Below are positions 3,002-12,489 of a DNA stretch of 64,000 nt, in pieces. Below the pieces are notes generated by a model that saw only the letters and a program-made list of their open reading frames with translations, was not told the DNA's origin and did not search any database. The stretch comes from Phyllobacterium sophorae (lineage in GTDB: Bacteria > Pseudomonadota > Alphaproteobacteria > Rhizobiales > Rhizobiaceae). How positions within the stretch are numbered: position 1 is the stretch's first letter; the number at the start of each line of letters is the position of its first letter. A program made the translations under genes and the position numbers. The stretch is taken from NCBI RefSeq assembly GCF_003010965.1, contig NZ_PGGM01000001.1, positions 682,001 through 746,000 of the forward strand, in the 5' to 3' direction.

Positions 3002-5962
3002 CTAGTGGGCTTCGTCCCAATTGTTCGCGGCACGTGCATCGACATGCAGCGGGACGGACAGGGAAATCGCCGGCATAGCGGCATTTTCCATGACCGCGCG
3101 AATGACCGGGATTGTCGCTTCCACTTCCGCTTCCGCCGTCTCGAAGATCAGTTCGTCATGCACCTGCAGGAGCATGCGCGCCGAGAGGTTCGCTTCGTCC
3201 AAGGCTGGCTCGATGCGGACCATGGCGCGGCGAATGATATCGGCGGCCGATCCCTGGATCGGCGCGTTGATCGCGGCGCGTTCATTGAATGCCCGGTGTT
3301 GCGGATTGGATGAACGAATCTCCGGATAGTGTGCCCGCCGCCCGAAAATCGTCTCGACATAACCGTGCTGGCGAGCGAACGCTTTCGTCGATTCCATATA
3401 GTCCCGGATACCGGGGAAACGTTCGAAGTAAGTGCGGATATATTGCCCGGCTTCTTCCCGTGGAATCGACAGCTGATTGGCAAGGCCAAAGGCGGAGATA
3501 CCGTAAATAATGCCGAAATTGATCGCTTTAGCGCGCCGGCGCACTTCGGACGGCATGTCCTTCACCGGGACGCCGAACATTTCCGAAGCAGTCATTGCAT
3601 GAATGTCGATGCCATCGGCGAAAGCCTGCGTCAGTTGGGGAATCTCGGCGACGTGTGCCAGGACGCGCAATTCGATCTGGCTGTAATCGGCGGAAATCAG
3701 CTTGTTACCGGGCTCGGCGATGAAGGCGGTGCGGATCTTACGGCCTTCACTGGTGCGTACCGGAATGTTTTGCAGGTTTGGCTCGGACGAAGAGAGACGT
3801 CCCGTAGAGGTCGCCGCCATGGCATAGGAAGTATGCACGCGCTTGGTACGTGGGTTGATATAGCCCGGCAATGCATCCGTATAGGTGGATTTGAGCTTGG
3901 TCAGCTGCCGCCAGTCGACGATCTTGCGCGGCAGCTCATGGCCTTCTGCGGCAAGGTCTTCGAGCAATTGGGCTGACGTGGACCACTGGCCGGTCTTGGT
4001 CTTGGAACCACCGGGAAGACCCATCTTGCCAAACAGGATATCGCCCATCTGTTTCGGCGAGCCGATATTGATCTTTTCGCCGGCCAGGCGGTAAATTTCT
4101 TCTTCGATGGCTGCGGCGGACTGGGCGAGGTCGCCGGACAAGCGCGAAAGAATCTGGCGGTCGACGGAAATACCGCGCTCCTCCATGCGGGCCAGCACCG
4201 GGATGAGTGGCCGTTCCAGCCGCTCGTAGACCGAGACAAGCCCATCGGCGACAAGACGCGGCTTCAACAGTCGCCACAAGCGCAAGGTGACGTCGGCATC
4301 CTCGGCTGCATATTCGGTGGCGCGCTCGATCGTTACCTTGTCGAATGTAACCGATGATTTCCCCGAACCAATCAAGTCTTTGTAGGCGAGGGGTTTGTGT
4401 CCGAGCCAGCGATCACAAAGACTATCCATGCCGTGGCTGCCCTCACCGGCGTCAAGCACGTAGGAGATGAGCATTGTGTCATCGAGCGGATGAAGGTCGA
4501 TGCCATGGCGATGCATGACCAGCCATTCATATTTCATGCTGTGCGCGATCTTCAGCACCGAGCGCTCTTCGAGCAACGGCTTCAACAAACGGAAGACTTC
4601 CCGCTCGGGTATCTGATGCTCAATCAAACCTCCACCGAGGAGATCGCCGTCGCCAGACTTGTGATTGATCGGAATATAGGCCGCTCGCCCTGGTCGTGTG
4701 GCGAGCGACAGCCCGACGACATCGGCTTGCATTGGATCCGCCGAGTTGGTCTCAGTATCGAACGCGACAACACCGGATGTCATCGCCTCGTCGATCCAGA
4801 CTTGCAGCGTCGCCACATCGCGAATCGTAACATAAGCGCTTCGATCGAACTTGGCGGCGAGCACCTCGTCGGTGCGCGATTTTACAAGGTCAGCAGGGGT
4901 TGCGGCGATATTCGATGCGGATTGCTTCGGCGAAGCCGCTGCCAGATTTGGTCCTGCGGATACTTGACGGCTTGTAATTTGCTCATTGGCCGGCTCTACG
5001 TCAACGTCTGGTCCATGTGCCTCGGCTACCGCTTCTATCTTCAGGCGGGCAGGTTCGACCTCACTTGCATCGACGCCGGTTGCTTCCGCGGCACGGCGGG
5101 TCAATGAATTGAATTCCATGGTCTTCAAAAAGGCGATGAGCTTATGACCGTCTTGTGGTTCAAGTCCGAAGTCCTCGATCCCGACATCGATCGGCGTGTC
5201 TTTCTTCAATGTTACCAGCTGGCGTGAAATGCGTGCCTGATCGGCATATTGAAGAATGTTTTCGCGCCGTTTCTGTTGCTTGATTTCGCCAGCACGGGCA
5301 AGAAGCGTATCCAGATCGCCGAACTCTTCAAGCAACTGTGCGGCGGTCTTTGGTCCGATACCGGGAATACCCGGCACATTGTCAGTCGAATCGCCAGTCA
5401 GCGCCTGAAGGTCGATCATTTTTTCTGGCGGAACGCCCCATTTCTCAATGACGTCTGGAATACCGATCTGCTTGTCTTTCATGCTGTCGTACATCGACAC
5501 GTTTGGCGTGACGAGCTGCATGAGATCCTTGTCGGAGGAAATGATGGTAACCTCAGCGCCTGCTTCTTCAGCCAGACGCGCATAGGTTGCAATCAGATCG
5601 TCTGCTTCAAAGCCTTCCTTTTCGATGCAGGGCAGGTTGAAAGCCTTGGTTGCCTGGCGAATGAGCCCGAACTGTGGGATCAGGTCTTCCGGCGGCGCCG
5701 AACGGTTTGCCTTGTATTCAGGATAGATTTCCTTGCGAAAAGTATGCGACGAATAGTCGAAGATCACCGCAAAATGCGTCGGGGTGTCCCCTACCGATGT
5801 ATCCCGAGCTTCCCGAAGCAGCTTCCACAACATGTTGCAGAAACCGGAAACAGCACCCACTGGCAAACCGTCCGATTTGCGAGTAAGGGGTGGGAGTGCA
5901 TGATAGGCCCGAAAGATATAGCCGGAGCCGTCGACGAGGAAGAGATGATCACCATTTTTCAT
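3002..5962 (-). CDS. polA: DNA polymerase I
   Basis: A 986-residue, three-domain DNA polymerase I for Okazaki fragment processing and repair synthesis. Residues 1 to about 290 are the 5' nuclease with its helix-hairpin-helix (GIPGIGPKTAAQLL). A low-complexity Ala/Pro/Ser linker follows to about 370. The 3'-5' exonuclease has intact DTET (402-405) and the YAAEDADVTLRL motif, so proofreading should be active. Polymerase motif A is DYSQIELR (Asp759), motif B is RRRAKAINFGIIYG (from about 808) and motif C is VHDE (Asp936). The ATG at 5962 was chosen because the family starts at MxxxDHLFLVDGSG; 31 extra in-frame upstream codons look non-coding. It converges with the pentulose kinase, and its upstream region holds a small-RNA candidate. 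Confidence 0.98.
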   Translation of the reverse strand: MKNGDHLFLVDGSGYIFRAYHALPPLTRKSDGLPVGAVSGFCNMLWKLLREARDTSVGDTPTHFAVIFDYSSHTFRKEIYPEYKANRSAPPEDLIPQFGLIRQATKAFNLPCIEKEGFEADDLIATYARLAEEAGAEVTIISSDKDLMQLVTPNVSMYDSMKDKQIGIPDVIEKWGVPPEKMIDLQALTGDSTDNVPGIPGIGPKTAAQLLEEFGDLDTLLARAGEIKQQKRRENILQYADQARISRQLVTLKKDTPIDVGIEDFGLEPQDGHKLIAFLKTMEFNSLTRRAAEATGVDASEVEPARLKIEAVAEAHGPDVDVEPANEQITSRQVSAGPNLAAASPKQSASNIAATPADLVKSRTDEVLAAKFDRSAYVTIRDVATLQVWIDEAMTSGVVAFDTETNSADPMQADVVGLSLATRPGRAAYIPINHKSGDGDLLGGGLIEHQIPEREVFRLLKPLLEERSVLKIAHSMKYEWLVMHRHGIDLHPLDDTMLISYVLDAGEGSHGMDSLCDRWLGHKPLAYKDLIGSGKSSVTFDKVTIERATEYAAEDADVTLRLWRLLKPRLVADGLVSVYERLERPLIPVLARMEERGISVDRQILSRLSGDLAQSAAAIEEEIYRLAGEKINIGSPKQMGDILFGKMGLPGGSKTKTGQWSTSAQLLEDLAAEGHELPRKIVDWRQLTKLKSTYTDALPGYINPRTKRVHTSYAMAATSTGRLSSSEPNLQNIPVRTSEGRKIRTAFIAEPGNKLISADYSQIELRVLAHVAEIPQLTQAFADGIDIHAMTASEMFGVPVKDMPSEVRRRAKAINFGIIYGISAFGLANQLSIPREEAGQYIRTYFERFPGIRDYMESTKAFARQHGYVETIFGRRAHYPEIRSSNPQHRAFNERAAINAPIQGSAADIIRRAMVRIEPALDEANLSARMLLQVHDELIFETAEAEVEATIPVIRAVMENAAMPAISLSVPLHVDARAANNWDEAH

Positions 5963-6097: not shown

Positions 6098-6285
6098 CCT
6101 TGAATTGCCACGGTTTGACCCCCAAATCCAAGGTGTCGACGTTAGATCGATGTCCGGGAACAAGGCTCGTCCCCCGCCTGACCCCGGACTTGCGGCCAAC
6201 CTCATCCCCCTCTCCAGGGTTGACCGCAAATGAGTGTAATGATCTGGTCGCCTGTGGTCCCCCCGCCACGGCGACCATTTCTTTT
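6098..6285 (+). ncRNA. Candidate small RNA between polA and the M20 peptidase (EcpR1-like by position)
   Basis: Four consecutive stem-loops lie on the plus strand, each with a C-rich loop. (1) GGTTTG 6112-6117 with CAAATC 6123-6128, loop ACCCC, extended by CCTTG/CAAGG. (2) GTCCGGG 6152-6158 with CCCGGAC 6183-6189, inner AGGC/GCCT, loop TCGTCCCCC. (3) TTGCGG-C-CAACC 6190-6201 with GGTTG-A-CCGCAA 6218-6229, loop 6202-6217 containing CCCCCTCTCC. (4) GGTCGCC-T-GTGG 6246-6257 with CCAC-GGCGACC 6266-6276, loop TCCCCCCG, then ATTTCTTTT, a Rho-independent terminator. The terminator fixes the strand and 3' end; the 5' end is uncertain (6098, about 6150 or about 6185). From memory, rhizobial EcpR1, a stress-induced RNA acting on dnaA and gcrA, lies beside polA, so this may be its homologue. 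Confidence 0.72.
6246..6285 (+). terminator. Rho-independent terminator of the polA-adjacent small RNA
   Basis: GGTCGCC/GGCGACC forms a 7-bp stem continued, after one bulged T, by GTGG/CCAC, with an eight-base C-rich loop and the tail ATTTCTTTT. No annotated plus-strand protein gene precedes it, since polA runs the other way, so it must end an RNA transcribed from this intergenic region. Confidence 0.8.
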
Positions 6286-8480: not shown

Positions 8481-9605
8481 CTAAGTCGACGATTCGGCCG
8501 TAACCAAAGCTTCTCTCGAAGCTGTGGTGCGGTCGATGTGTGCCCATTGCGGCCGCTGGAACAGAAACTGCCCGTAGCCGATCCGTTGAATGAGGCCGTA
8601 CAGAATCACGGGGCCAAGTACGCCGCTGATGACTGTCAAGAGCGATATCGTACCGATATCGGTTATGATCCAGCTCTTGAGCAGGATGGTACGAGCGATC
8701 GCCATTGGCAGAAAGAAAGCGAGGTAGACGACAATCGAATGCGCCCCAAGCCAGCGCAATGGGGCCACGGCTTTTTGCCAGGAGGAAAGAGAGCCGGCGA
8801 TGAGCGCGGAAACCGACACGATGGCCAAGGCTCCAGCGAATCCGGCAATCAATGAAATCAAGGGCACACTGCTCCAGCCACCTAGCCCGCCAGAGGTGTA
8901 GCTTTCTTCCGGTATCCAGGCCGAAAATGGTTCCGACGCAGGATGGAACACCAGCCATCCATTGACGAGCCCCCATACTCCGAGAATCGCCAACGCTATC
9001 TGGGGGCGTTGCCGCAACCACTCCGCGATCCGGAAAATCGCCGGCGCAAACGCATATCCGGCGAAAAAGTAGACGAAGCGGCTGCAGAATTCGTCGATAA
9101 CCAGCCAGCCCGTATGAATTGGCAAAGTCTCAAGAGCGCCGGCAATAATCAGGATAAGCCAAACATTGGTGCCCTTGAGCAGGCGTGTGACGATGAAGAA
9201 CACGGGCAAGAGATAGATGAACCAGAGGGTGCCGAATGGCTGGACAAAGGCCAGAATGTAGGCGGAGAAGGCGCCGCTAAGACCGCTCTCAGCCACGATG
9301 CCTGGTGCTTTGAACAGGAACTGGATCGTGAGCCACAGGAAGTAGAAATAGGCGAAATGCACGACTTTGCGGTCGGCGTAGCGCAACCATGGGCGGTCAA
9401 TCACAAGTCCGAGAAACAGACCCGATATCAGGAAAAAATCTGGCATGCGGAAGGGCTGTGCAAAGGCAACAACGGCGTGCATCCAGCCGCGTGCTCCTGC
9501 TTCGTTCTCGACACCCAGAACCGAATGCATCATCACGACAAAGATGATGCACACGCCCTTGGCAATATCGACCCAATCGACGCGCGAGTTTTCGCCGGTG
9601 TTCAT
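8481..9605 (-). CDS. Acyltransferase family 3 integral membrane protein
   Basis: A 374-residue polytopic inner-membrane protein of the acyltransferase 3 (OafA/OpgC-like) family. The signature N-terminus WVDIAKGVCIIFVVMMHS with the catalytic-type histidine in helix 1 is followed by about ten hydrophobic segments and the conserved FLISGLF loop. Such proteins O-acylate surface glycans, lipids or peptidoglycan precursors. The ATG at 9605 has a good GGGGAA site seven bases upstream; the TTG at 9620 would place the site inside the gene. It stands alone, downstream of the terminator of a small-RNA candidate. A role in succinylating periplasmic glucans (OpgC-like) is possible since a cyclic glucan synthase lies in the same window, but this is not shown. 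Confidence 0.87.
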   Translation of the reverse strand: MNTGENSRVDWVDIAKGVCIIFVVMMHSVLGVENEAGARGWMHAVVAFAQPFRMPDFFLISGLFLGLVIDRPWLRYADRKVVHFAYFYFLWLTIQFLFKAPGIVAESGLSGAFSAYILAFVQPFGTLWFIYLLPVFFIVTRLLKGTNVWLILIIAGALETLPIHTGWLVIDEFCSRFVYFFAGYAFAPAIFRIAEWLRQRPQIALAILGVWGLVNGWLVFHPASEPFSAWIPEESYTSGGLGGWSSVPLISLIAGFAGALAIVSVSALIAGSLSSWQKAVAPLRWLGAHSIVVYLAFFLPMAIARTILLKSWIITDIGTISLLTVISGVLGPVILYGLIQRIGYGQFLFQRPQWAHIDRTTASREALVTAESST

Positions 9606-9701
9606 GATTTTGTTCCCCAACCAATTTTCCTTACATAGATGAAATTAGACAAGGGGAAGTAAAATTCGAGTGATGAATGGGTCTGAAACGCCGGCAAGCC
9701 C

Positions 9702-9732
9702 CAAAAACAAAAGAGCCGGGCATAAGCCCGGC
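9702..9732 (-). terminator. Rho-independent terminator of the minus-strand small RNA
   Basis: A perfect 7-bp GC stem (GCCGGGC at 9715-9721 with GCCCGGC at 9726-9732) and a four-base loop are followed on the minus strand by TCTTTTGTTTTT. It lies upstream of the acyltransferase start and separates that gene from the small RNA and lipoprotein. Confidence 0.88.
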
Positions 9733-9808
9733 GAATTGTGAACGCTAAAGCGTCCAGAGGGGAACACGCAACGAGCGAAAAATGGGAGGAGAACCGCTCG
9801 TTACGCAT
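9702..9808 (-). ncRNA. Candidate trans-acting small RNA with an anti-Shine-Dalgarno loop
   Basis: On the minus strand an RNA of about 107 nt is outlined by a promoter and a terminator. The first stem pairs 9795-9805 with 9767-9777 (11 bp, one U-G) and displays a 17-base loop (9778-9794, read on minus) containing CTCCTCCC, complementary to purine-rich ribosome-binding sites. A second short hairpin covers 9740-9755 (AACGCT core). The third is GCCGGGC/GCCCGGC (9715-9732) followed by TCTTTTGTTTTT. The predicted +1 is near 9808, seven bases after the -10. No start codon with a ribosome-binding site makes sense inside. The architecture resembles rhizobial alpha-r RNAs with CCUCCUCCC loops (alpha-r8, alpha-r14/NfeR1); the family is not settled. 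Confidence 0.75.
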
Positions 9809-9814
9809 GAATGA

Positions 9815-9843
9815 AAATAGAACTGCCCTAGTCCCTTTTCAAG
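9815..9843 (-). promoter_or_regulatory. Sigma-70 promoter of the minus-strand small RNA
   Basis: Read on the minus strand, CTTGAA (9843-9838), a 17-base spacer and CTATTT (9820-9815) match the alphaproteobacterial housekeeping consensus CTTGAC-N17-CTATAT closely. The predicted start is about 9808, just before the first stem of the RNA. Confidence 0.75.
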
Positions 9844-9909
9844 GGCTGCAAGATAATATTTTACGCGTGCGAGCATTTTTTATCGGTCACCCTGATTTCT
9901 GGTGCAATT

Positions 9910-10107
9910 TTAATTGCTTGTAGCACCCGTTTGAGCGCTATCATCTGAAAATTCCTGCATGTCTTTGCAAACACCACGCCCGCGCAACTGACAACCACCA
10001 AGACGATACTGAGCTTCCGATGCTGGTGCGGGATTGAGCCGTTCAATGGCGCCCCCGCCACAACCGCCCAAGATCGCCGCGAGAGCTGCAAGGACAACAA
10101 AACGCAT
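9910..10107 (-). CDS. Small lipoprotein, function unknown
   Basis: A 65-residue protein with a lipoprotein signal: MRFVVLAALAAILGGC, charged start, hydrophobic core and an LGGC lipobox with Cys16 as the modified residue. The mature part, under 50 residues, has two further cysteines (GGCQLRG and GVCKDM) and no family I recognise. The ATG at 10107 has a strong AGGAG ribosome-binding site at proper spacing, which supports a real gene despite the small size. It would be processed by LspA, encoded at 33562. A small-RNA promoter begins 67 bases past its stop. Diverges from the PBP1A gene. Confidence 0.72.
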   Translation of the reverse strand: MRFVVLAALAAILGGCGGGAIERLNPAPASEAQYRLGGCQLRGRGVCKDMQEFSDDSAQTGATSN

Positions 10108-10217: not shown

Positions 10218-10287
10218 ATCGCCGCAATTAACCTGCAACGGGTCGCGGATCATTCTTGCGGCTCATTTGGGGCGGGACTTCTTATTA

Positions 10288-12489
10288 ATGGCATCACGCG
10301 ATAAGGGCAGACAACGCATTGAGCCGGCGTTCAGTTCGGGCCGCCGTTCAGGCGATGATTTGCGCGCAGATCCGGAGGACAGGCCTGTGGCGAAACGCAA
10401 GACTGCACGCAAGCCCATTAGACCAAAACGCGCTAGATCCCGTCGTGGCAGCGGCCGCGGGGGTTTTCTTGGCTTGCTGCGGCGAGCGGTATATTGGTCG
10501 TTCGTGCTCTGTATCTGGGGCGGCATCGCCTTGGCGGGAACAGTCATTTACTTTGCCGCAAAGATGCCACAGACAACGACTTGGTCGATTCCGGACCGGC
10601 CGCCAAACGTCAAGATCGTTTCCGTAGAAGGCAATCTGATTGCCAATCGTGGCGCGTCGGGCGGCGAAGCTATCAGCTTGCATGAGATGTCGCCATATCT
10701 GCCTGAAGCTGTGGTGGCGATCGAGGATCGGCGCTTCTACTCTCATTTCGGGGTCGATCCGATCGGTTTTGCTCGTGCCATGGCTGCGAATGTCATGTCT
10801 GGACGATTGGTGCAGGGCGGTTCGACGATTACCCAACAGCTAGCTAAAAACCTGTTCCTGACGCCGGATCGCACGATCGAGCGCAAGGTGCAGGAAGTTC
10901 TGCTCGCTCTTTGGCTGGAGCGGAAATATACGAAAAAACAGATTTTGGAGATGTATCTGAACCGGGTCTATCTCGGCTCCGGGTCCTACGGCGTAGCCGC
11001 CGCCTCCAGGCGTTATTTCGACAAATCGGCCAAGGAAGTTACGCTGCCGGAGGCGGCGTTGATTGCCGGGCTGCTGAAAGCGCCGTCGCGACTATCGCCG
11101 GCGCGGGATCCGAAGGCTGCCAGTGAGCGCGCCCAACTTGTCCTAGCTGCCATGCGCGACCAGGGCATGATCGGCGACAAGGAACTGAACTTCGCGATGA
11201 AACAGCCGGCCTCGCGCGCCGCTTCCTATTGGAGCGGATCGGAACAATATGTGGCTGACCGTGTGATGGAAGAACTGCCGGCGCTGATCGGCGATGTGCG
11301 TAGCGACGTTATTGTCGATACCACGGTAGATCTTGGCCTGCAGAAGCTCGGCGAAGCATCAATTCGTGACCTTATCAGCAAGAACGGCGAGAAGCTCAAC
11401 GTATCGCAAGGCGCGATGGTCTCGGTGGACGGTACAGGGGCCGTCCGAGCGCTCATTGGCGGCTATGACTACGCCAACAGTCAGTTCGACCGTGCAAGCG
11501 AAGCCAAGCGTCAGCCGGGCTCGGCGTTCAAGCCTTTCGTCTATCTTTCGGCGCTGGAGCAGGGATTTACACCGGAATCCGTGCGCAACGATGCGCCAAT
11601 TCGCATCGGCAACTGGACGCCAGGGAACTACAACGGCAAATACTTCGGCAAGGTCACACTTGCCGAAGCGCTGGCGCGCTCATTGAATTCTGTCTCGGCA
11701 CAGCTCGTGATGGAAGTTGGACCGAAAACCGTCGTATCCACCGCACACCGCCTTGGAATCGAATCAAACCTCACCTCCAATGCATCGCTGGCACTTGGAA
11801 CATCGGAAGTCACGCTGCTTGAACTGACCGATTCCTTCGTGCCCTTTGCCAACGGCGGTTATAAGGCCCCGCTTCACATCATACGCCGCGTGACGACCAA
11901 CGATGGCAAGGTGCTCTACGAATACAAGAGCCCGGCGCCAAGCCGCGTGATCGATCCGCGCAATGTCGGCATGATGAACGCGATGCTTAGCCAGACGGTG
12001 GAAAGCGGTACAGCGACCAAGGCAAAGTTCGGTTGGCCCGCCGCGGGCAAGACCGGCACCAGTCAGAATTTCCGTGATGCCTGGTTCATCGGTTACACGT
12101 CAAATCTGACGACCGGTGTGTGGTTCGGCAATGATGATGGCAAGCCGACGAAGAAGATCACCGGCGGGTCTCTGCCTGCAATCGCCTGGAAGGACTTCAT
12201 GGTCGCCGCGCACAAGGGCGTTCCGGTAGCCCAACTGCCGGGCGACTATCAGCTGCGCCAGCAGGTTAATGACGGCAACGATATCCTCCCGGCATCAGGT
12301 GGCGATCCGGCCGTTCCGGCGGCTGAAGGTGTGCCTTCTGCTCAACTTGATCCGGCTGGACCTGTGCCACCTGCCGGCCTTGGCGATCAGACCGGATCAA
12401 CCCGGCCGGTGCCGCCTGCAAATGTTGGCGGCAACGGTGGTCAAAAAGGCCGCAAGACGACGCTGTTTGATCTGATCATGGGGAACTGA
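10288..12489 (+). CDS. Bifunctional class A penicillin-binding protein (PBP1A family)
   Basis: A 733-residue peptidoglycan synthase. A basic cytoplasmic N-terminus of about 65 residues precedes one transmembrane helix. The glycosyltransferase (GT51) domain carries EDRRFYSHFGVD and QGGSTITQQLAKN. The transpeptidase domain has the active-site SAFK (Ser near 412), an SLN motif and AGKTGTS (Lys near 588). After the catalytic core comes a tail of about 70 residues rich in Pro, Ala and Gly, with the repeated element PVPPA. It polymerises lipid II and crosslinks stem peptides in the periplasm. The ATG at 10288 was preferred to the TTG at 10267. A CtrA box lies upstream, and a terminator lies inside the convergent glpK gene. 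Confidence 0.95.
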   Translation: MASRDKGRQRIEPAFSSGRRSGDDLRADPEDRPVAKRKTARKPIRPKRARSRRGSGRGGFLGLLRRAVYWSFVLCIWGGIALAGTVIYFAAKMPQTTTWSIPDRPPNVKIVSVEGNLIANRGASGGEAISLHEMSPYLPEAVVAIEDRRFYSHFGVDPIGFARAMAANVMSGRLVQGGSTITQQLAKNLFLTPDRTIERKVQEVLLALWLERKYTKKQILEMYLNRVYLGSGSYGVAAASRRYFDKSAKEVTLPEAALIAGLLKAPSRLSPARDPKAASERAQLVLAAMRDQGMIGDKELNFAMKQPASRAASYWSGSEQYVADRVMEELPALIGDVRSDVIVDTTVDLGLQKLGEASIRDLISKNGEKLNVSQGAMVSVDGTGAVRALIGGYDYANSQFDRASEAKRQPGSAFKPFVYLSALEQGFTPESVRNDAPIRIGNWTPGNYNGKYFGKVTLAEALARSLNSVSAQLVMEVGPKTVVSTAHRLGIESNLTSNASLALGTSEVTLLELTDSFVPFANGGYKAPLHIIRRVTTNDGKVLYEYKSPAPSRVIDPRNVGMMNAMLSQTVESGTATKAKFGWPAAGKTGTSQNFRDAWFIGYTSNLTTGVWFGNDDGKPTKKITGGSLPAIAWKDFMVAAHKGVPVAQLPGDYQLRQQVNDGNDILPASGGDPAVPAAEGVPSAQLDPAGPVPPAGLGDQTGSTRPVPPANVGGNGGQKGRKTTLFDLIMGN

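Follow-up and report, generated by a model that had tools for sequence, protein, structure and literature searches.

A predicted lineage-specific AbcR (alpha-r15) small RNA gene beside an acyltransferase gene in Phyllobacterium sophorae

The stretch of DNA analysed here (the window, 64,000 nucleotides of the Phyllobacterium sophorae genome) carries on its minus strand a predicted small RNA gene of the ar15/AbcR family (9702..9808, about 107 nt), both ends of which are predicted and which is recognised by the Rfam model RF02345 and by its fold. Downstream, also on the minus strand, lies an acyltransferase gene (Acyl_transf_3; 8481..9605, with the start inferred at the probable ATG 9605), which matched PF01757 at 1.4e-27 in a search that used the ORF as called from TTG 9620. 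On the other side a gene for a class A penicillin-binding protein (PBP), with Transgly and Transpeptidase domain matches, runs divergently on the plus strand (10267..12489). The first-pass annotation had placed the RNA gene in what looked like an empty gap, and it is indeed intergenic, between the acyltransferase gene and a 65-aa ORF preceding the PBP gene. This ORF (9910-10107, minus strand) has a lipoprotein-like N-terminus and no Pfam match, and is partly kept in many relatives within the genus. Between the RNA terminator and the acyltransferase gene there is a conserved 18-nt block, ATCACTCGAATTTTACTT (9657-9674, minus strand), which could be the promoter of the acyltransferase gene or a regulator site. 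Another small RNA gene, ar7 (RF02342, 67 bits), is found 3.4 kb away at 6134-6280 on the plus strand, and the ORF past the end of the acyltransferase gene we take from its sequence to be rnd.

The near-consensus promoter CTTGAA-N17-CTATTT described in the first-pass annotation can be read directly on the minus strand, with a -35 box CTTGAA (9838..9843), a 17-nt spacer, a -10 box CTATTT (9815..9820) and a predicted start near 9808. Directly 5' of the -35 box is an A/T-rich block (9844..9866) which resembles an UP element and, judging by its conservation, may function as one. Three hairpins are predicted in the RNA from the fold, a terminator scan and pair counts, the last being the intrinsic terminator. 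Stem-loop 1 (9764..9808) presents the aSD1 seed CUCCUCCC in its loop (9784..9791), and the linker of stem-loops 1 and 2 holds the aSD2 seed UUCCCCUC (9757..9764). Stem-loop 2 (9740..9755) and the terminator (9702..9732), a 7-bp G+C stem (9732-9715) with a T-rich tail to 9702, are both present in the sequence and predicted fold, as had been claimed. All of these features are on the minus strand.

The predicted energy of the 9808-9702 fold is -46.3 kcal/mol, with shuffled sequences averaging -23.3 (z -7.6; 0/200 shuffles as good). Stem-loop 1 has 15 bp paired in the minimum-energy fold, and the 11 bp given earlier for this stem is a conservative figure, since 16 of the 19 distinct orthologues leave the outermost pair open and the second pair is U-G. 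When a region of 801 bases was scanned, one promoter-like site was found against a shuffle mean of 0.8, and two terminator-like sites against a mean of 1.1. By consensus alone the promoter and terminator are unremarkable, and it is their conservation that stands out.

A DNA search found a copy of the window type in all 20 Phyllobacterium genomes, including the genome of the window itself. An alignment of these 20 orthologues gives a mean pairwise identity of 0.93 for the RNA body, where 83 of 107 columns are invariant, 0.98 for the -35 box, 0.71 over -10 to -1 and 0.51 for the spacer. The A/T-rich block reaches 0.70, against 0.33 further upstream, and identity downstream is 0.43. The -35 box is CTTGAA in 19/20 (CTTGAT in the other), and the -10 box is CTATTT in five, CTACTT in seven, ATATTT in six and ATACTT in two, with the 17-nt spacing between the boxes kept in all 20. 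The linker seed UUCCCCUC is invariant (20/20), as is each base of UUCUCCUCCCA in the loop of stem-loop 1. Random drift of the loop and stem in close relatives, which the first-pass annotation had named as evidence that would speak against the gene, is thus absent.

Over the 19 distinct orthologues 96.8% of cells are paired for the whole structure and 94.0% for stem-loop 1, where both partners have changed in two pairs (6 cells). Sliding the structure by one to three columns gave no double-change pairs. Support from covariation is modest, since two double-change pairs were reached in 39/500 column shuffles; 6 cells were reached in 0/500. All 6 pairs of stem-loop 2 and all 7 pairs of the terminator are invariant, and are uninformative on pairing.

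The Rfam ar15 model (RF02345, AbcR1/AbcR2) matches 9711-9806 with 59.1 bits (gathering score 40) over its full length (positions 1-112 of 112), and the same search found matches in 0/14 control genomes. Both published AbcR seeds, M1 CUCCCA and M2 GUUCCC in Brucella abortus (PMC5461406), occur at the corresponding places in the window RNA. CUCCCA lies in the first hairpin loop, where CUCCUCCC (9791-9784) is followed by A, and GUUCCC lies between hairpins 1 and 2, where UUCCCCUC (9764-9757) is preceded by UG. The first-pass annotation had thus seen the anti-Shine-Dalgarno loop correctly and overlooked the second seed. On the evidence of its sequence, the window RNA is a member of the AbcR (alpha-r15) family. 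The earlier suggestion that it might be new was wrong at the family level; the family is already known, and what is new is only the lineage-specific locus and the altered control signals. Among the Rfam library matches at the locus, a list from which one weaker match to a different family in the same clan is omitted, none is to a family named alpha-r8. Matches to SorX (18.0 bits, cut-off 46.6), SorY (18.3 bits, cut-off 111) and an rpsL leader (far below its cut-off) were rejected. The proposal of a self-contained small RNA gene with an exposed anti-Shine-Dalgarno loop is supported by the Rfam match, the fold and the conservation in the genus.

The ar15 search found four copies in the P. sophorae genome, and between two and six matches in each of the 20 genus genomes (in genome G126 one of the six falls below the cut-off). 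Multiple copies per genome characterise this family in Rhizobiaceae and Brucellaceae. The window copy shares 70-73% identity with the other three over 101-105 aligned positions. All four contain UGUUCCCC, so this sequence points to no task special to the window copy. One sibling (C44:38752-38866) is flanked by a molybdopterin oxidoreductase ORF and by a LysR-type ORF, which from its sequence and position we take to be LsrB/VtlR. It belongs to the same family as the window copy and has the same two seeds, but differs in its LysR neighbour, in the motif GCAT-N3-TG-N3-T upstream and in its sequence (71% identity over 104 aligned positions). Sixteen genus copies taken to be of this LysR-linked type were read, a sample that leaves out the likely copies of G122, G124, G130 and G138. 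An LsrB-like N-terminus was found near 14 of the 16; L163 and L168 were included by promoter and length, and have none in the fetched stretch. The motif occurs within about 100 nt upstream of 13 of the 14, and of 15 of the 16 overall.

The two remaining copies each have a peculiarity. In L004 (C10:30554-30646, 50 bits) the CUCCUCCC seed of the first loop has been lost and UGUUCCCC kept, and it is perhaps an aSD2-only variant. L001 (C33:500426-500526) and the genus copies L174, L176 and L162 have a palindrome, GCATAGC(A/T)GCTATGC, upstream of ar15. It resembles a LysR site but in L001 does not fit the LsrB motif, and these copies perhaps represent a third mode of control.

In contrast to the LysR-linked copies, GCAT-N3-TG-N3-T was found on neither strand at any of the 20 window-type copies. 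The window copy, with acyltransferase and PBP genes as neighbours and without this motif, falls outside the LsrB/VtlR-linked sub-type, AbcR1 proper. LsrB is probably not its activator, and since the motif is missing, its expression is probably governed separately from that of the LysR-linked copy. In Sinorhizobium meliloti AbcR1 is described as driven by RpoD together with LsrB and AbcR2 by RpoH1, and the consensus sequences quoted are CTTGAA-N16-CCTATAT for RpoH1 and CTTGAC-N17-CTATAT for RpoD (PMC8844928). Written in the same way, the window promoter is CTTGAA-N16-TCTATTT, of which the -35 box fits RpoH and the -10 box matches RpoD at least as well. Predicted RpoD and RpoH promoters are reported to overlap in Rhizobium etli (PMC4167512). 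One RpoH above the cut-off is encoded in the P. sophorae genome, where CTTGAA/C-N17-CCA..T is found upstream of 4/5 HSP20 genes with a pattern that permitted CA or TA in the -10 box; the -10 box of the window copy is CTATTT. The groES promoters were unusable as a control for RpoH; one of the two groES genes has CTTGAC-N17-CTATCT, and the repeats upstream of groES look to us like CIRCE. From these signals the window copy may be under RpoD, or possibly RpoH.

The acyltransferase gene adjoins the RNA gene in 20/20 genus loci, and the PBP gene lies within the fetched 3.1 kb in 11/20. Occurrence beyond these genomes was compared at 80 named acyltransferase loci, the best 80 of 567 relatives (loci L042-L044 were left out of the comparisons). 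The RNA is found upstream of the acyltransferase in 16 of these 80 (L075-L090, 127-139 bits), of which 15, among them L075 of P. brassicacearum STM 196, are titled Phyllobacterium and one 'Rhizobiales bacterium'; they overlap at least in part with the 20 genus genomes. The model used (R1) comprises 17 rows of alignment A1, being 14 of the 20 genus orthologues and the three paralogues of the P. sophorae genome, so the 16 high scores are not independent of it, whereas the absences are. The remaining 64 of the best 80, all with at least 1.1 kb of upstream DNA, have no RNA match above 13.9 bits. Six Brucella-group loci gave weak hits (9.4-13.9 bits, at about 4750-4900), which were rejected (E 0.37 or worse, and past the end of the acyltransferase gene). 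The Rfam ar15 model, run on 20 of the 80 loci, agreed with the split made by R1 (6/6 against 0/14). The 18-nt block pattern is present in 20/20 genus loci and in 16 of the best 80, the same 16 that carry the RNA.

The 64 loci lacking the RNA include Brucella, Ochrobactrum, Mesorhizobium and Chelativorans. They also include three titled Phyllobacterium (P. salinisoli L093, P. phragmitis L095 and P. leguminum L102), so that the distribution of the RNA corresponds to a narrower Phyllobacterium. Of the 20 relatives' loci scanned, 14 have an ar7 gene on the side of the acyltransferase where it lies in the window, namely 10 of the 14 without ar15 and 4 of the 6 with it. As this neighbour is kept in loci lacking the RNA, the gene order is in large part ancient, and ar15 was probably acquired at this locus on the branch leading to the clade that carries it. 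Repeated loss elsewhere is a less simple alternative. In the wider family some ar15 match was found, under stricter filters, in 91 of 121 sampled genomes, many of which have only one.

AGGAG-type sites had been noted before many genes of the window, and indeed 14 of 44 crude gene calls have at least 5 nt complementary to CUCCUCCC at -20..-4, against 0-1/44 at each of five control positions. The starts of these calls were chosen partly by their Shine-Dalgarno sequences, which favours the contrast, and all that can be concluded is that strong Shine-Dalgarno sites are within reach of a loop of this kind. One candidate target is a Peripla_BP_6 gene (L195), in which GGGGAACA, the exact complement of UGUUCCCC, lies directly before the ATG. 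Its orthologue is found in 8/20 genomes at E 1e-150, with GGGGAAC kept before the ATG in seven of the eight; in L211, the remaining one, the position reads GGGGAAT and GGGAACA lies further upstream. A second candidate, L200, reaches the threshold in only 2/20 genomes, with GGGGAAT in the other of the two (L219).

For leader comparisons 9 of 16 PF13458 hits were used, split, partial and sub-threshold hits being left out. At least 7 nt complementary to aSD2 are present in two of the nine Peripla_BP_6 leaders (L195 and L200) against 0/44 crude leaders (Fisher p 0.026), a contrast which is softer than this value because the background included a wrong start for the acyltransferase gene, whose probable true leader holds GGGGAACA. 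Duplex energies of the nine substrate-binding protein leaders differed from those of 21 window genes with an ATG and a good Shine-Dalgarno sequence at p 0.077 (aSD1) and 0.052 (aSD2), and from those of all 44 crude calls at p 0.011 and 0.006, the latter comparison being confounded by wrong starts. The evidence for targets of the window RNA is no more than suggestive, and the L195 pattern is consistent with aSD2 silencing by any of the four AbcR copies, each of which has UGUUCCCC. The exact complement of UGUUCCCC is also present in the window itself, where GGGGAACA (9611-9618, minus strand) lies 5 nt before the probable acyltransferase ATG. Regulation of the acyltransferase by the window RNA was considered and rejected, as this site is not conserved (exact in 2/16 RNA-carrying named loci, L075 and L081).

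In alphaproteobacteria associated with plants or animals, AbcR RNAs silence nutrient uptake broadly. We consider it very likely that the window RNA is an AbcR paralogue with its own promoter, which acts by seed pairing to ribosome-binding sites as a separately controlled sibling, from a locus probably gained in this lineage. An RNA of about 107 nt would be transcribed from its own promoter, as the promoter signals and their conservation suggest, and its predicted fold would expose CUCCUCCC in the first hairpin loop and UUCCCCUC in the linker. By analogy with studied relatives the seeds would pair, probably aided by Hfq, with ribosome-binding sites on mRNAs that encode ABC-type uptake systems and metabolic enzymes, and pairing would block translation and speed up mRNA decay, as suggested by tested relatives in S. 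meliloti and B. abortus. One Hfq gene is encoded in the genome, and the most likely mechanism is that transporter mRNAs are silenced with the aid of Hfq at their ribosome-binding sites. Control would be separate from that of the LysR-linked copy, through RpoD or possibly the heat-shock sigma factor RpoH, and the role may be that of a second, differently regulated sibling, like AbcR2 in S. meliloti.

A more elaborate version of this reading seems unlikely to us. Here the RNA would be a lineage-specific sibling with its own input and its own task, coupling the state of the envelope to nutrient uptake by silencing transporters and, in some species, the downstream acyltransferase, under a stress sigma factor. 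It is suggested by the complementarity of the acyltransferase ribosome-binding site GGGGAACA to the aSD2 seed in this genome, and by the constant adjacency of that gene in the genus.

Somewhat less probable still is that the RNA is a 5' leader or attenuator of the acyltransferase gene, with the terminator setting read-through into 9605-8481. The gene is on the same strand about 100 nt downstream, is linked in every genus locus (the PBP gene was within the fetched stretch in only about half), and has the complement of UGUUCCCC near its probable start. Against this, related ar15 copies are found at three other places in the genome with other neighbours, the 8-mer at the acyltransferase start is exact in two of the 16 named loci, the separate conserved block before the gene could be its own promoter, and acyltransferase relatives occur without the RNA at 64 loci of the best 80.

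We give very little credence to an alpha-r14/NfeR1-type (cuckoo-like) RNA, with repeated CCUCCUCCC loops and independent of Hfq. The first-pass annotation had proposed this family; an anti-Shine-Dalgarno loop is common to both, the genome has four alpha-r14 places, and nutrient-uptake targets are reported for NfeR1/alpha-r14. However, the whole-genome covariance search for alpha-r14 (RF02344, E 0.001) put all four elsewhere and found none at the window locus, which the ar15 model matches over its full length. The window RNA has a single loop of this kind, whereas alpha-r14 members are described as having three hairpins, each with CCUCCUCCC, and as independent of Hfq (PMC10746234). The four alpha-r14 places, all over the cut-off, are at C22:574345, C7:86513, C45:176345 and C44:14849 (L005-L008). 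A silent relic of duplication that has lost its transcription, which the three further ar15 copies might suggest, is just as improbable, given that all 20 genus genomes keep the RNA, with most of its columns invariant and the promoter boxes and their spacing retained, beside flanks that have diverged.

The reading we prefer, a separately controlled AbcR paralogue, can be set beside two known systems. S. meliloti AbcR1 and AbcR2 (Smr15C1/C2) belong to the same Rfam family, also occur as several copies per genome, have the identical 8-mers CUCCUCCC and UUCCCCUC in the same places, and at 121 and 114 nt are similar in size to the RNA predicted here (PMC8844928). Reporters with seed mutants and compensating target changes are described there as supporting independent action of each seed, with some fusions inconclusive (PMC8844928). 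The S. meliloti genes are in tandem beside lsrB, whereas the window copy stands alone between acyltransferase and PBP genes, lacks an LsrB-type motif and has a -10 box departing from the RpoH1 consensus quoted for AbcR2 (PMC8844928). In B. abortus, AbcR1 is described as free of VtlR control and as located on a different chromosome from its VtlR-controlled sibling, and both its seeds are shared with the window RNA (PMC5461406). It is apparently at another locus, as the fetched Brucella and Ochrobactrum acyltransferase loci, B. abortus itself not being among them, gave no match at this position.

Among the open-licence papers searched, none names both Phyllobacterium and AbcR1, and looser searches gave no paper mentioning Phyllobacterium among those listed. 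A copy fixed in one lineage, with its seeds unchanged and with a new locus, a different promoter and no LsrB-type site, would be a clean natural case in which the targets stay and the control is rewired. In practical terms, the construction of AbcR mutants should count copies outside the lsrB region.
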